IMG/VR virus record: IMGVR_UViG_3300003323_001290
Location: 1 to 33,839 of that record
DNA: 33,839 nt
Reading direction: 5' to 3' (one strand)
Source: a virus
The position numbers and the translations under genes were made by a program. The notes under the pieces were generated by a model, which was given only the letters and a program-made list of their open reading frames with translations, did no database searches and was not told where the DNA came from. Shown piece after piece: positions 14,981 to 21,031 of this stretch. Position 1 is the stretch's first letter; each line of letters opens with the position of its first letter.

Positions 14981-15010
14981 GTTGACAACGTCAACAGGAA
15001 CGTGTACGGT
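14981..15010 (+). promoter_or_regulatory. Operator-promoter 4 (GTTGAC-AAC-GTCAAC), leaderless layout
   Basis: Arms at 14981-14986 and 14990-14995. TTGACA 14982-14987, 17-bp spacer, -10 TACGGT (15005-15010). The seventh base after the -10 is the A of ATG 15017, so the mRNA would begin exactly at that start codon. Confidence 0.8.
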
Positions 15011-15016
15011 CACGAC

Positions 15017-17284
15017 ATGATCAGCTGCGCCGACGTCGCGCTGTTCTTCGACGGCGAGCTGCAGTCGAGGGCTCGCGAAGAGGCGTTCAGGAACCACGTC
15101 GCCAGCTGCGAACGCTGCCAGGAGAAGCTCCACGGCCTGATGCAGGAGGCAATCACGGTGTCGCGTACTCACAAAGGAAACCAAGACATGACCACCAACA
15201 AGTTCCCGATCTTTGCGAAGGCAGTGGCTGCATCCTTCCAGGCCATCTGCAACGCCTCGCAGGTCTACGTCACGGGCGTGGACGGCGACGCCCTATACCA
15301 GCGCTACCTGTCCGCCTTCCCCGCGGGCACCAACCCCATCTTCAAGAAGAGGACCGAGCACGACTGCTCGTGCTGCCGGCAGTTCATTCGACGCGCCGGC
15401 AACGTCGTCTCGGTCGACGACCACGGCGGCATCCGCACCATCTGGGACGAGGCGGCCGAAGAAGCACCGCACCCATACAACGTCGTGGCCGCCGCGCTGC
15501 GCGACGCCGTGCTCGCGGAGAGCATCGCCAACCTGTTCCGGGTCGGCCCGAAGGAGAACAGCTTCGGAGCCGCCACCACGCGATCGCTCGACGCCGGCGG
15601 CAGGGCGCTGACCTGGAACCACCTCCACACGGGCGAGATCCCCAGGACGCTGCAGGCCGGGTCGCCCGACCAGGTCCGCGGCGACTACCGCACCACGGTG
15701 CAGGTCTTCACGCGTGGGCTCGTCGAGCTGTCGCCCTCGGCCCTGGACACGGTGCTCGCGCTCATCGACGCCAACAACCTGTACCGCGGCGCCGAGCACC
15801 GGGACGCGGTCATGCAGTTCATGGCGGCGCAGAAGAAGTTCCTGGACATCAGGTCGCGGCCGAGGACTTCGCGGGAGCAGGCCGTCTTCGCCTGGACCAA
15901 CGCCGCCGGCCCCGCCTCGCGCTTCCGCAATACGGTGATCGGCACCCTCGTGCAGGACATCAGCGATGGCGTCGACATCGAGCGGGCCGTCGCCTCGTTC
16001 GAGACGAAGGTGGCGCCGACGAACTACAAGCGGACCTCGGCGGTCATCACGCCGGCCATGGTCCAGAAGGCGATGGAGACCATCGAGGCGCTGGGCCTCG
16101 AGTCCGCGCTGGAACGGCGCTTCGCCACCATCGGCGACATCTCGGTCAACGACGTGAAGTGGGTCGACGGCAGCGTCAGGCCCGCCATGAAGGGCGGGCT
16201 GGCAGACACCCTCATGCGGGCCGCCGCGACGGCTAACCCCAGGAGCACGAAGAGGGACGAGGAGCGCGCCGAGGACGTCGACCTCGACGACTTCGTCGAG
16301 CGGGTGCTGCCGACGGTGACGAGCATGGAGGTCCTGCTCAAGGGCGAGCACCTCGGCAACCTGATGTCCCTGACGGCGCCCGTGCACCCGGAGCCCAAGC
16401 GGCTGTTCCGCTGGAGCAACGACTTCGCCTGGAGCTACGGCGGCAACGTCGCCGACTCGATCGCCGAGCGCGTCAAGAAGGCCGGAGGCAGGGTCGAGGG
16501 CGCGGTCCTGCGGGTCTCTCTGTCGTGGTTCAACTACGACGACCTGGACCTGCACGTCTACGAGCCGGCGGGCCGCGGCGTCCACGGCCTGCAGGACCAC
16601 ATCTACTACCGCAACAAGCGCGGGGCGACCGGAGGCACGCTCGACGTCGACATGAACGCTGGCAGCGGCACGTCGCGCGAGGCCGTGGAGAACGTCGTCT
16701 GGACGGGCAAGGTGCCGAACGGCACCTACAAGGTCGTCGTCAACAACTTCTGCCAGCGCGAGACCAGCGACGTCGGATTCGTGGTCGAGGTGGAGTGCGG
16801 AGGCAAGCTCTCGCACTTCTCGTTCAACAAGACGGTCCGCAACGGACAGGACATCAACGTCGTCACCCTGCACATGAAGGACGGCCGCATCGAGCAGGCC
16901 GACATCGGTGACCCGGCCATCACGGCGTCCAACGTCTCCCAGACCAAGTGGGGCCTCTCGACCGAGCAGTACGTCAAGGTCGACGCCGTCACGCTCAGCC
17001 CCAATTACTGGGGCGACAACGCGGTGGGCAACAAGCACACGTTCTTCATCCTGCACGGGTGCAAGAACGACGAGCCGACCCGCGGCATCTACAACGAGTT
17101 CCTGCACCCGCGCCTGGAGCCGCACCGCAAGGTCTTCGAGGTCATCGGCGACAAGACCAAGTGCCAGCCCACGGACGGGCAGCTCTCGGGCCTGGGCTTC
17201 TCGTCGACCAAGCGCGCCACCATCCTGGCCCGGGTCCAGCAGGGCAAGAAGCAGCACCTCTTCAACATCCACGTCGGTTCCTGA
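15017..17284 (+). CDS. Conserved large phage protein with N-terminal anti-sigma-type zinc finger
   Basis: 755 residues from the apparently leaderless ATG 15017. Residues 1-36 form a zf-HC2/ZAS-type finger (C4, then HVASCERC with H27, C31, C34), the zinc fold of anti-sigma factors. The remainder, from M58 (ATG 15188, with AAAGGAAA upstream), matches from memory a ~700-residue family widespread in phages and starting at that methionine: TEHDCSCCRQF near 57-66 of the shorter form, VAPTNYKR, and a C-terminal YfaP/DUF2135-like beta domain (DLDLHVYEP, GGTLDVDMNAG, NGTYKVVVNNF). Two products may be made. The family's function is unknown to me; a regulatory role of the finger is inference. Confidence 0.8.
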   Translation: MISCADVALFFDGELQSRAREEAFRNHVASCERCQEKLHGLMQEAITVSRTHKGNQDMTTNKFPIFAKAVAASFQAICNASQVYVTGVDGDALYQRYLSAFPAGTNPIFKKRTEHDCSCCRQFIRRAGNVVSVDDHGGIRTIWDEAAEEAPHPYNVVAAALRDAVLAESIANLFRVGPKENSFGAATTRSLDAGGRALTWNHLHTGEIPRTLQAGSPDQVRGDYRTTVQVFTRGLVELSPSALDTVLALIDANNLYRGAEHRDAVMQFMAAQKKFLDIRSRPRTSREQAVFAWTNAAGPASRFRNTVIGTLVQDISDGVDIERAVASFETKVAPTNYKRTSAVITPAMVQKAMETIEALGLESALERRFATIGDISVNDVKWVDGSVRPAMKGGLADTLMRAAATANPRSTKRDEERAEDVDLDDFVERVLPTVTSMEVLLKGEHLGNLMSLTAPVHPEPKRLFRWSNDFAWSYGGNVADSIAERVKKAGGRVEGAVLRVSLSWFNYDDLDLHVYEPAGRGVHGLQDHIYYRNKRGATGGTLDVDMNAGSGTSREAVENVVWTGKVPNGTYKVVVNNFCQRETSDVGFVVEVECGGKLSHFSFNKTVRNGQDINVVTLHMKDGRIEQADIGDPAITASNVSQTKWGLSTEQYVKVDAVTLSPNYWGDNAVGNKHTFFILHGCKNDEPTRGIYNEFLHPRLEPHRKVFEVIGDKTKCQPTDGQLSGLGFSSTKRATILARVQQGKKQHLFNIHVGS

Positions 17285-17309
17285 CCACCTACCAGCGCAG
17301 AAAGAGAAA

Positions 17310-17720
17310 ATGACCATGCAGAACGTCTTCGAGTTCGCCACCCGCAACAAGCTCCGCTTCGCGTCCGTCCGAGGGGAGCTGTCCGTCGAGCAGCTGTGGG
17401 ACGTCCCGCTCCGGGCGCGCGACGGCTTCGACCTCAACGCCGTCGCCAGAGTCGCCAACAAGGCGCTCAAGGAGATCTCGGAGGAGAACTTCGTCGAGAC
17501 CGCCAAGACGACCGAGCACGCGCGCCGCGAGGCGGCCCTGGAGGTCGTCAAGTACGTCATCGCGACGAAGCTCGCCGAGGAGGAGGCGGCCAAGGCGCGC
17601 GCGGCCAGGAAGCAGGAGAAGGAGCAGCTCCTGGCCATCCTCGCCGAGAAGCAGGCCGGCAAGCTGAGCGAGCTGTCCGAGAAGGAGCTGCAGAGGCGGA
17701 TCGCGGCGCTGGAGGACTGA
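17310..17720 (+). CDS. Conserved neighbour of the large phage protein
   Basis: 136 residues from ATG 17310; ATG 17316 is better spaced from AAAGAGA and may be the true start. The pattern NVFEFATRNKLRF, GELSVEQLWDVPL, ALKEISEENFVE, a long charged coiled coil, and a C-terminal ELSEKELQRRIAALE matches from memory a small protein that commonly sits beside the large family above. The conserved pairing suggests they form a complex. Function unknown. Confidence 0.8.
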   Translation: MTMQNVFEFATRNKLRFASVRGELSVEQLWDVPLRARDGFDLNAVARVANKALKEISEENFVETAKTTEHARREAALEVVKYVIATKLAEEEAAKARAARKQEKEQLLAILAEKQAGKLSELSEKELQRRIAALED

Positions 17721-17774
17721 CTCGATAGCTGAGCGAGCCGCCGGGAGCGTCGTCAGGCAGAACAGGACAAAGAG

Positions 17775-18854
17775 ATGAGCACCGAACAGTACCGCGTCAC
17801 CAACTTCAAGGACGACACGCGCGCCATCATCGACAAGATGGTGGAGATCCTCGCGGAGTACAGCGACCAGAAGCTAAGCGCGAGACAGGTGTACTACCGC
17901 TTCATCGGCGGCAACTTCCTGCCCGACAGCTGGATCGACGTCGAGTACAACCGGAAGAAGGGCCTGCCCGACGACACGAAGAACACGCCGAAGAACTACC
18001 AGCGGCTGATCTCCATCCTGGTCGACGCGCGCTACGCGGGGCTCGTGGACTGGGACGTCATCGAGGACCGCGGCCGGGAGCCGCGGGTCCCGGGCGAGTG
18101 GGACAATGTCGACCAGATCATCGACGCGGCGCTCGACCAGTTCCGCCTGCCGCGGCGGGCCGACCAGCCCCGGCACCTCGAGCTCTGGGTCGAGAAGGAC
18201 GCCCTCGCCGGCGTGCTCGGCCCCATCGCGCGCCGCGCGCACATCCCGCTGGCCGTCAACAAGGGCTACAGCTCGGCCAGCGCGATGAAGGCCGCCGCCG
18301 ACCGCATGATCGCGGCGTGCGGCGTGAGCGCCGCGGTCCCGCAGTGCGGGAACTGCGCCGAGGACTTCGCCTTCCGCTACCCCGACGGTACCTGCAAGGG
18401 CTGCGGCATCAAGAAGGGCGACGTCATCTTCCGCTACAACGACGGCGACGGCGACCAGATCGAGGAGGTCGAGAAGGAGGTCGTCGTGCTCTACCTCGGC
18501 GACCACGACCCGTCGGGGGAGGACATGGTCCGGGACATCCGGGACCGCCTCACCGAGTTCGGCGTGCCGAATCTCGAGGTCGTCAAGATCGGCCTCACCA
18601 TCAGCCAGGTCCGGCAGTACGACCTGCCGCCGAACCCCGCCAAGGTCAACGACAGCAGGGCGAAGGCGTACATCGAGAAGTTCGGCAACGACAGCTGGGA
18701 GGTCGACGCCATCCCGCCTCGCGAGCTGAACCGGATCGTCGAGCAGGCCATCGCGCGGTACACCGACCGCGAGAAGCTCGCCGCCGCCGTCGCCCGCGAG
18801 GACGCCGAGCGCGCACGCGTGCGCGCCGCCATCCAGAGGAGCCGCAAGCAGTGA
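17775..18854 (+). CDS. TOPRIM protein related to TopoVI-A/Spo11, with inserted zinc ribbon
   Basis: 359 residues. An N-terminal winged-helix-like region (KLSARQVYYRFIGG, with YQRLISILVDARYAG) precedes a TOPRIM fold: ELWVEKDAL (E140), then YLGDHDPSGEDM (D243, D245). ITISQVRQYDLPPNPAKVN and DAIPPRELNRIV follow. This arrangement matches phage proteins annotated as TopoVI-A-like or TOPRIM nuclease-like. Between the two TOPRIM blocks lies a zinc ribbon (C191, C194, C207, C210). The tyrosine of Spo11-type cleavage would have to be one in the N-terminal YYRF. DNA cleavage or topology change is plausible but not shown. Confidence 0.8.
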   Translation: MSTEQYRVTNFKDDTRAIIDKMVEILAEYSDQKLSARQVYYRFIGGNFLPDSWIDVEYNRKKGLPDDTKNTPKNYQRLISILVDARYAGLVDWDVIEDRGREPRVPGEWDNVDQIIDAALDQFRLPRRADQPRHLELWVEKDALAGVLGPIARRAHIPLAVNKGYSSASAMKAAADRMIAACGVSAAVPQCGNCAEDFAFRYPDGTCKGCGIKKGDVIFRYNDGDGDQIEEVEKEVVVLYLGDHDPSGEDMVRDIRDRLTEFGVPNLEVVKIGLTISQVRQYDLPPNPAKVNDSRAKAYIEKFGNDSWEVDAIPPRELNRIVEQAIARYTDREKLAAAVAREDAERARVRAAIQRSRKQ

Positions 18855-19381: not shown

Positions 19382-19459
19382 GGCGGTCGTGGTGAAGAGG
19401 AAACACACCGGGCTAGCACCCCGGCACGTCCCTGGCTCGAACCCAGGCGATCGCCACCA
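19382..19459 (+). tRNA. tRNA, anticodon AGC by structure (Ala), atypical
   Basis: Acceptor GGCGGTCG (19382-19389) pairs with CGATCGCC (19448-19455) over 8 bp, followed by A and encoded CCA (19457-19459). The D arm is GTG...CAC with AGAGGAA in the loop (G18G19-like). The anticodon arm is CCGGG-CTAGCAC-CCCGG, giving C32, T33, anticodon AGC, A37. The T arm is CCTGG-CTCGAAC-CCAGG. Odd points: 8-bp acceptor, a six-base variable loop, C where T54 is usual, and A34 for alanine, which is rare in bacteria. The intrinsic terminator follows nine bases later. Confidence 0.75.
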
Positions 19460-20137: not shown

Positions 20138-20167
20138 GTTGACAACGTCAACAGGAAACGATAGAAC
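20138..20167 (+). promoter_or_regulatory. Operator-promoter 5 (GTTGAC-AAC-GTCAAC), upstream of the RHH gene
   Basis: Arms at 20138-20143 and 20147-20152. TTGACA 20139-20144, 17-bp spacer, -10 TAGAAC (20162-20167). The seventh base after the -10 is 20174, one base before the second in-frame ATG (20175), so the transcript is almost leaderless. Confidence 0.8.
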
Positions 20168-20168
20168 C

Positions 20169-20399
20169 ATGAGCATGCCCCTGAAAAAGCGCAAGCCTGA
20201 CGACGGCGAGAAGAAGCCGCCCGGGAGGCCGAAGGTCCTGCCGCCGGAGCTGGACAAGCGGCACCAGCTCCGGTGCGCCTCGAAGGACTTCGAGGCGTGG
20301 GAGGAGTACAGCAAGGAGATCGGCTTCCCGAACGTCTCCGCCTGGCTCCGCAAGGTCGCCAACGACGCGCTCCCCAAGCGCCTCCGGTCCGCGCCGTGA
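20169..20399 (+). CDS. Ribbon-helix-helix DNA-binding protein, candidate regulon repressor
   Basis: 76 residues from ATG 20169; ATG 20175 (MPLKKRK) fits the predicted transcript start better. A basic, proline-rich N-terminal tail (KKRKPDDGEKKPPGRPK) precedes an Arc/CopG-like pattern: strand HQLRCA, helix SKDFEAWEEYSKEIG, turn FPN, helix VSAWLRKVANDAL. RHH proteins bind short palindromes as dimers of dimers. The gene sits directly behind one of the six identical operators, the usual layout for an autoregulated repressor. RHH identity is fairly clear; that it binds these operators is inference. Confidence 0.75.
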   Translation: MSMPLKKRKPDDGEKKPPGRPKVLPPELDKRHQLRCASKDFEAWEEYSKEIGFPNVSAWLRKVANDALPKRLRSAP

Positions 20400-21031
20400 G
20401 CCGCCCCGTCGACCCTCGGACCGAGGCGGACGCCCAGGTCGCGCGCGCCCTGCAGGTCGTGGTGGACGCCGACGAGGCGGAGGCCGAGCGGGGTGGCGCC
20501 GCCCGGGCGCGCCGCGACTACACGCCGGACGAGCTCGAGACGCTGTTCTTCACGCTCGGCATGGCGATCGTCCAGCTCAAGAAGCTGCCCGGCGGCCAGG
20601 AGGCGCACGACCGGGGCATCCGCCGCATGCGCGAGGAGCTGGGGAAGCGGGGCCGCCACGACCTCCTCGCCAGGCTCGACGCCGAGAGCGAGCTCCGGGG
20701 AGCGATGCGCGCCCTGGACGAGCTCGGCGTGCCCGCCTTCGCGCCCGAGGGGAGCCCGGTCTCCGCGGGGCAGCCCCTCGGCGTGGAGGCGCGCATCCGG
20801 TGGGTCGCCGAGCTCGCCCGGCGCCGCCAGGCGCCGGAGGCGAACAACGAGGAGGCCGTCAGGATCGTCCGGCGCACGTTCGGCGACGACGTCGACCTGA
20901 GCGAGGGCACGACCGGGCACCACCTCGTCAAGCTGGTGGAGCTGGAGCTCGCGCAGCTGCAGCAGCTCGGCGAGAAGCTCGTGGCGCTCGCGGTCCAGGT
21001 CCACCCTTGGAAGGAAGGAGCACCTCGATGA
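20396..21031 (+). CDS. Helical protein with one ALDELG...RIRWV motif
   Basis: 211 residues from GTG 20396 (GTGA overlap with the RHH gene, hence probably in the same regulon). Charged helices dominate. Residues about 105-143 (MRALDELGVP, a loop, then EARIRWVAELARRR) match the motif repeated four times in the protein at 10081. The C-terminal helices (LVKLVELELAQLQQLGEKLVAL) look like a coiled coil. Function unknown. Confidence 0.7.
   Translation: MSRPVDPRTEADAQVARALQVVVDADEAEAERGGAARARRDYTPDELETLFFTLGMAIVQLKKLPGGQEAHDRGIRRMREELGKRGRHDLLARLDAESELRGAMRALDELGVPAFAPEGSPVSAGQPLGVEARIRWVAELARRRQAPEANNEEAVRIVRRTFGDDVDLSEGTTGHHLVKLVELELAQLQQLGEKLVALAVQVHPWKEGAPR

Follow-up and report, generated by a model that had tools for sequence, protein, structure and literature searches.

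A zinc-finger module at a predicted leaderless start runs in frame into a conserved phage protein

Introduction

The locus described here raises the question of whether a conserved phage protein of the phrog_1735 family is made in a single form, or also in a longer form that carries an additional zinc finger at its N-terminus. The window, which is the whole stretch of 33,839 nucleotides of viral DNA that was analysed, contains a frame (15017-17284) that is open throughout and encodes 755 amino acids, with no stop between the finger and the core protein. If starts were called from family alignments, as is ordinary practice, annotation would give such a protein its short form only and miss the finger. 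The features of the locus are collected in Table 1. L062 and L063 are the two viral contigs that carry related fingers.

Table 1. Features of the finger-core locus and of the genes that follow it, in window positions
Feature	Position	Strand	Evidence or remark
Palindromic operator GTTGACAACGTCAAC, overlapping the -35 box	14981..14995	.	Exact match; also found 5' of the finger in L062 and L063
-35 box TTGACA, 17-bp spacer to the -10 box	14982..14987	+	
-10 box TACGGT, TANNNT type	15005..15010	+	
Predicted leaderless start codon ATG, 6 nt past the -10 box	15017..15019	+	Same spacing in L062 and L063 (GTG)
Finger-coding segment, zf-HC2 type, 57 residues	15017..15187	+	Pfam, purifying selection in relatives, predicted structure
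Shine-Dalgarno-like AAAGGAAA of the internal start ATG 15188	15173..15180	+	AAAGGAAA-type sites also in L062 and in the finger-less L002, L011, and L012
Core protein, 698 aa, phrog_1735 family, from M58	15188..17284	+	
HDCSCC motif in the core	15359..15376	+	C117 and C120 shared by at least 90% in an alignment of 50 members
Beta domain resembling TerD, at model residues 497-634 of the core	16505..16918	+	VIA-align to TerD 3ibz
Next gene, phrog_2018	17316..17720	+	Downstream of the core in the window and L062; DNA synteny
DNA topoisomerase-like gene, phrog_6247	17775..18854	+	Directly follows the free-standing finger in L063

Results

The core protein matches the phrog_1735 profile over its full length (E 1.2e-230, residues 61-745 on 2-666 of 673). 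GenBank has 495 phage records with a family member, and viral contigs have at least 60 such loci; the family extends from phages of Klebsiella and Salmonella to genome bins of Methanobrevibacter. The close relatives L003, L004, and L005 begin exactly at M58, which agrees with the claim of the initial annotation that the family normally starts at this residue. A sequence search for a relative of the core among solved structures found none. The list returned by Foldseek for the whole core is unconvincing, and the TerD-like part alone stands out, aligning to TerD 3ibz in VIA-align with a Z of 9.9 over 130 residues and an rmsd of 3.3. The HDCSCC motif, which lies close to the N-terminal end of the core, is a possible metal site of the core itself. 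Further downstream in the window, ARAGORN calls a tRNA-Ala with the unusual anticodon AGC at 19382-19459; Rfam at its gathering threshold gives no tRNA at this position, and the call is perhaps degenerate or false. The Rfam scan of the window as a whole returned nothing.

The segment ahead of M58 contains the ligand pattern of an upstream Cys or His followed by Hx3Cx2C. The ligands are C4, H27, C31, and C34, of which the last three lie in the stretch NHVASCERC, and all four are conserved in 3/3 fingers (window, L062, and L063). The window finger scores 21.6 bits against Pfam zf-HC2 (E 2.4e-4), just below the cut-off of 22.2, and the fingers of L062 (30.7 bits) and L063 (31.0 bits) are both above it. 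The whole-protein model (mean pLDDT 85) predicts helices at residues 4-11, 18-30, and 32-50, followed by a disordered linker at about 51-60 with a pLDDT of 40. The L063 finger modelled alone gives the same three helices, and the window finger would probably fold around one zinc ion. The open frame and the ligands bear out the initial description of a ZAS-type finger fused in frame to a phage family of about 700 residues.

The kinship of the finger raises the possibility that it is a true anti-sigma module, which would bind a host or phage sigma factor, either free (L063) or tethered to the core (window and L062), and would shift transcription during infection. By sequence, the solved structures closest to it are those of the anti-sigma factor DdvA (E 4.6e-6) and of a 991-aa CHAT-domain protein with the same finger. 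Foldseek ranks zinc-bound RsiW and RslA first, each a weak match with E above 1, and VIA aligns the finger to RsiW with a Z of 5.5 over 54 residues, the zinc being absent from the model. These best matches in sequence and fold argue for an anti-sigma role, as do the sigma region 2 genes carried by six of the larger relatives in the core lineage, including L002, L004, L005, and L017. In class I anti-sigma domains (ASDI) helices 1-3 form a bundle, and helix 4, which lies past a flexible linker, binds sigma region 2 (PMC7406223). The predicted finger model has the bundle of helices 1-3 around the zinc site. Helix 4 is absent from the predicted structures, in which the free L063 finger ends within an extended helix 3 and the fusion passes through the disordered linker into the ordinary first helix of the core. 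The finger is therefore a zf-HC2 member that lacks one feature of anti-sigma domains, and the absence of the sigma2-binding helix weighs against the anti-sigma reading, although contact to sigma region 4 by finger helix 1 alone is possible. It also counts against this reading that no sigma gene was found in the window, L062, or L063, all three of which are fragments, and that the zf-HC2 model also picks up proteins that are not known to bind sigma. On balance, sigma binding is a fair lead that is less likely than not to hold.

A search with the finger alone as the query matched two viral contigs, L062 and L063, and a profile search of viral contigs with the finger returned the same two loci only. 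Across 28 related or operator-bearing viral records, zf-HC2 exceeded its cut-off in L062 and L063 only. GenBank phages gave unspecific matches (best E 0.8), and bacterial genome contigs gave no relative. Aeromonas phage phiA8-29, considered because of an alignment from query residue 24, was rejected; its frame is closed by a stop immediately ahead of the core and encodes no finger. The family comparison places the finger only in the window, L062, and L063 among the relatives examined, which gives three finger loci in all, two of them closely related, and the finger is a rare, local addition. The number of finger-carrying members is a lower bound, as the 60-locus viral-contig search for the core missed L062.

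The L062 finger is joined in frame to the same core, and the resulting protein has 752 aa and starts with GTG. In L063 the finger has its own gene of 56 codons; the TGA of this gene overlaps the ATG of the DNA topoisomerase-like gene (ATGA), and the core and phrog_2018 are absent between the two. Because the finger occurs as its own gene without the core, it is a module in its own right and more than an extension of the core. The finger DNA of L062 and L063 differs by 8 substitutions in 55 codons, 7 of which are at codon position 3, so that the finger is selected as a protein; dS is 0.199 and dN 0.012 (dN/dS about 0.06), and the chance of at least 6/8 synonymous changes is 0.002. The ligands, the LFFD stretch, and KLHGLMQE do not vary between the window and L062, where the finger evolves faster than the core (dN 0.36 for the finger and 0.13 for the core). 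That the finger is an independent, selected module, free in one relative, is the main addition to the initial annotation, whose treatment of it as a protein module agrees with the purifying selection in the relatives. A comparison of L063:4956-6235 with window 14981-18854 showed similar AAGAGATG-type sequences at the ends of the segment missing in L063, which suggests a recombination between ribosome sites.

The free-standing form in L063 also lends itself to the explanation that the fusion is an accident, in which the stop of a free finger gene was lost and the resulting 755-aa protein has no separate function. The core keeping its own start and ribosome site fits such an accident, as does the linker that is predicted to be disordered. 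However, the fused state is common to the window and L062 at 77% protein identity, and across this distance the finger and linker differ by whole codons only, with a stop in neither linker. An accidental fusion is thus doubtful.

The TTGACA and TACGGT boxes at a spacing of 17 bp constitute a sigma-70-type promoter. Its operator is present in 6 exact copies in the window, and sites with up to 3 mismatches number 49 where shuffled sequences give an expectation of 10.5. The distance of 6 nt from the -10 box to an RTG start codon is identical at the finger loci of the window, L062, and L063, and the intervening bases differ. For an unbiased test of this spacing, viral contigs were scanned for the operator and the -10 box only, so that the start codon was not a criterion, with an RTG background of 3.2% per position. 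ATG or GTG stands exactly 6 nt past the -10 box in 8/12 distinct operator-promoters of public viral contigs and the window (P about 4e-10), or in 7/10 when the window's own sites are left out (P 4e-9); two of the eight are related finger loci and the sites are not fully independent. Leaderless starts thus appear to be a habit of this promoter class. The class is nonetheless mixed, since the six operator sites of the window differ in leader and gap length, with ordinary leaders at three (22-25 nt past the -10 position) and gaps of 7 nt and 9 nt at two more. In M. tuberculosis, TANNNT elements have their centres 7-12 bp upstream of most starts (PMC3898074). The mRNA of the finger gene is predicted to begin, probably, exactly at ATG 15017. 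The leaderless geometry had been proposed for this codon in the initial annotation; it recurs in relatives far above chance, and the case is now stronger than a reader of the sequence alone could know.

Several further loci carry the operator. At L067:7777-7815 and L072:5412-5450 two divergent promoters share one palindrome, and in each the TANNNT box is followed 6 nt later by an ATG, which would give back-to-back leaderless genes from a single operator. At 20138-20400 in the window GTTGACAACGTCAAC lies just 5' of the gene for a basic protein of 74-76 aa, which is ribbon-helix-helix-like by eye and has no match in Pfam. A homologue of 81 aa is found in L062 and L063 behind an operator variant with the same 7-nt gap to the ATG. 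This basic protein may be an autoregulated repressor of these operators. Other operator-bearing loci (L083-L086) have neither the core nor the finger.

Another explanation is that only the core from ATG 15188 matters and that the finger segment is a translated leader, which would couple or set the expression of whatever gene follows. The segment resembles mycobacterial leader ORFs in standing first on a leaderless transcript and, in L063, in its ATGA coupling; its downstream gene is exchangeable (the core in the window, the topoisomerase in L063), and core family members elsewhere do without it. Selection nevertheless acts on its amino acids, including the four zinc ligands and KLHGLMQE, and not just on the openness of the frame, which makes a mere leader improbable.

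The internal start is preceded by ACAAAGGAAACCAAGACATG in the window, by CAAAAGGAAAACCACAAAGATG in L062, and by GAAAAGGAAACCAGAGCATG in the finger-less L002. From this comparison the ribosome site looks inherited with the core, the finger segment having been placed ahead of it without a stop. Because the site is common to the finger-less L002, two nested products are likely, in keeping with the two nested starts noted in the initial annotation. No stop lies between 15017 and the core, and ribosomes that begin there must therefore produce the long form; we infer that both forms are made in quantity. Hybridisation of the internal site to a 16S tail of the actinobacterial type is moderate, at -6.1, near the random quartile of -6.4. 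Such energies separate real starts from random positions poorly and were therefore not used as evidence for the internal start.

Discussion

The preferred reading, with a probability of roughly 0.6, is that a finger module on a leaderless, operator-controlled transcript continues into a core with its own start and that two products are made. The finger segment would be a small zinc-finger module that is first on the transcript and is read from the leaderless start. In the window and L062 this module, lacking a stop codon, runs in frame into the core, which keeps its own ribosome site and start. Ribosomes starting at the 5' end would make the 755-aa finger-core protein and those loading at the internal site the 698-aa core. 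The finger would probably serve as a docking module for protein contact, built around one zinc ion, and by kinship its likeliest partner would be a sigma factor. Points against this reading are the moderate hybridisation of the internal site, the small number of finger loci, the faster evolution of the finger than of the core between the window and L062, and its assumption of efficient leaderless translation in the host; no WhiB gene was found as a pointer to an actinobacterial host, and the phage terminase is distantly like those of SPO1-type phages (about 33%). The bolder idea of a mobile mini anti-sigma finger, used free and as a removable tether that brings the TerD-domain core to a sigma factor or RNA polymerase, with leaderless versus ribosome-site-led initiation setting the ratio of tethered to untethered core, is very unlikely.

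If two nested products are made, whether translation begins leaderless or at the ribosome site would decide the presence of an extra domain and not only the amount of protein. Should the finger bind a sigma factor, it would count as a very small modifier of transcription from a phage. The free 56-aa finger of L063 is a ready test object.

Several known systems resemble the finger-core protein in part. The core is like members of phrog_1735 over its full length from M58, and the finger is in no other member examined except L062. In mycobacteria, leaderless small ORFs are frequently linked through RTGA to the gene that follows (PMC4633059). The finger gene is like them in having RTG at its predicted 5' end after a TANNNT box and, in L063, an ATGA stop-start overlap. 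Unlike them, it runs on without a stop in the window and L062 and forms the N-terminus of the next protein, and the window promoter overlaps a phage operator. The finger shares the C...Hx3Cx2C ligands and the three-helix bundle with the ZAS or zf-HC2 domains of DdvA of Myxococcus, RsiW, and RslA, and a DdvA-type finger is also found on a 991-aa protein, as the phage finger is on its larger core. It differs from DdvA, RsiW, and RslA in being phage-borne, in having 56-57 residues without helix 4, and in having no neighbouring sigma gene in view. Gene 4 of phage T7 uses nested in-frame starts, each with a ribosome site, to make 4A, whose N-terminal zinc domain serves the primase, and 4B, which is shorter by about 60 residues. 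The T7 proteins have no sequence relation to the finger-core protein; they are like it in pairing a long zinc-domain form with a nested short form, and differ in that the long form described here is predicted to begin at a leaderless start.
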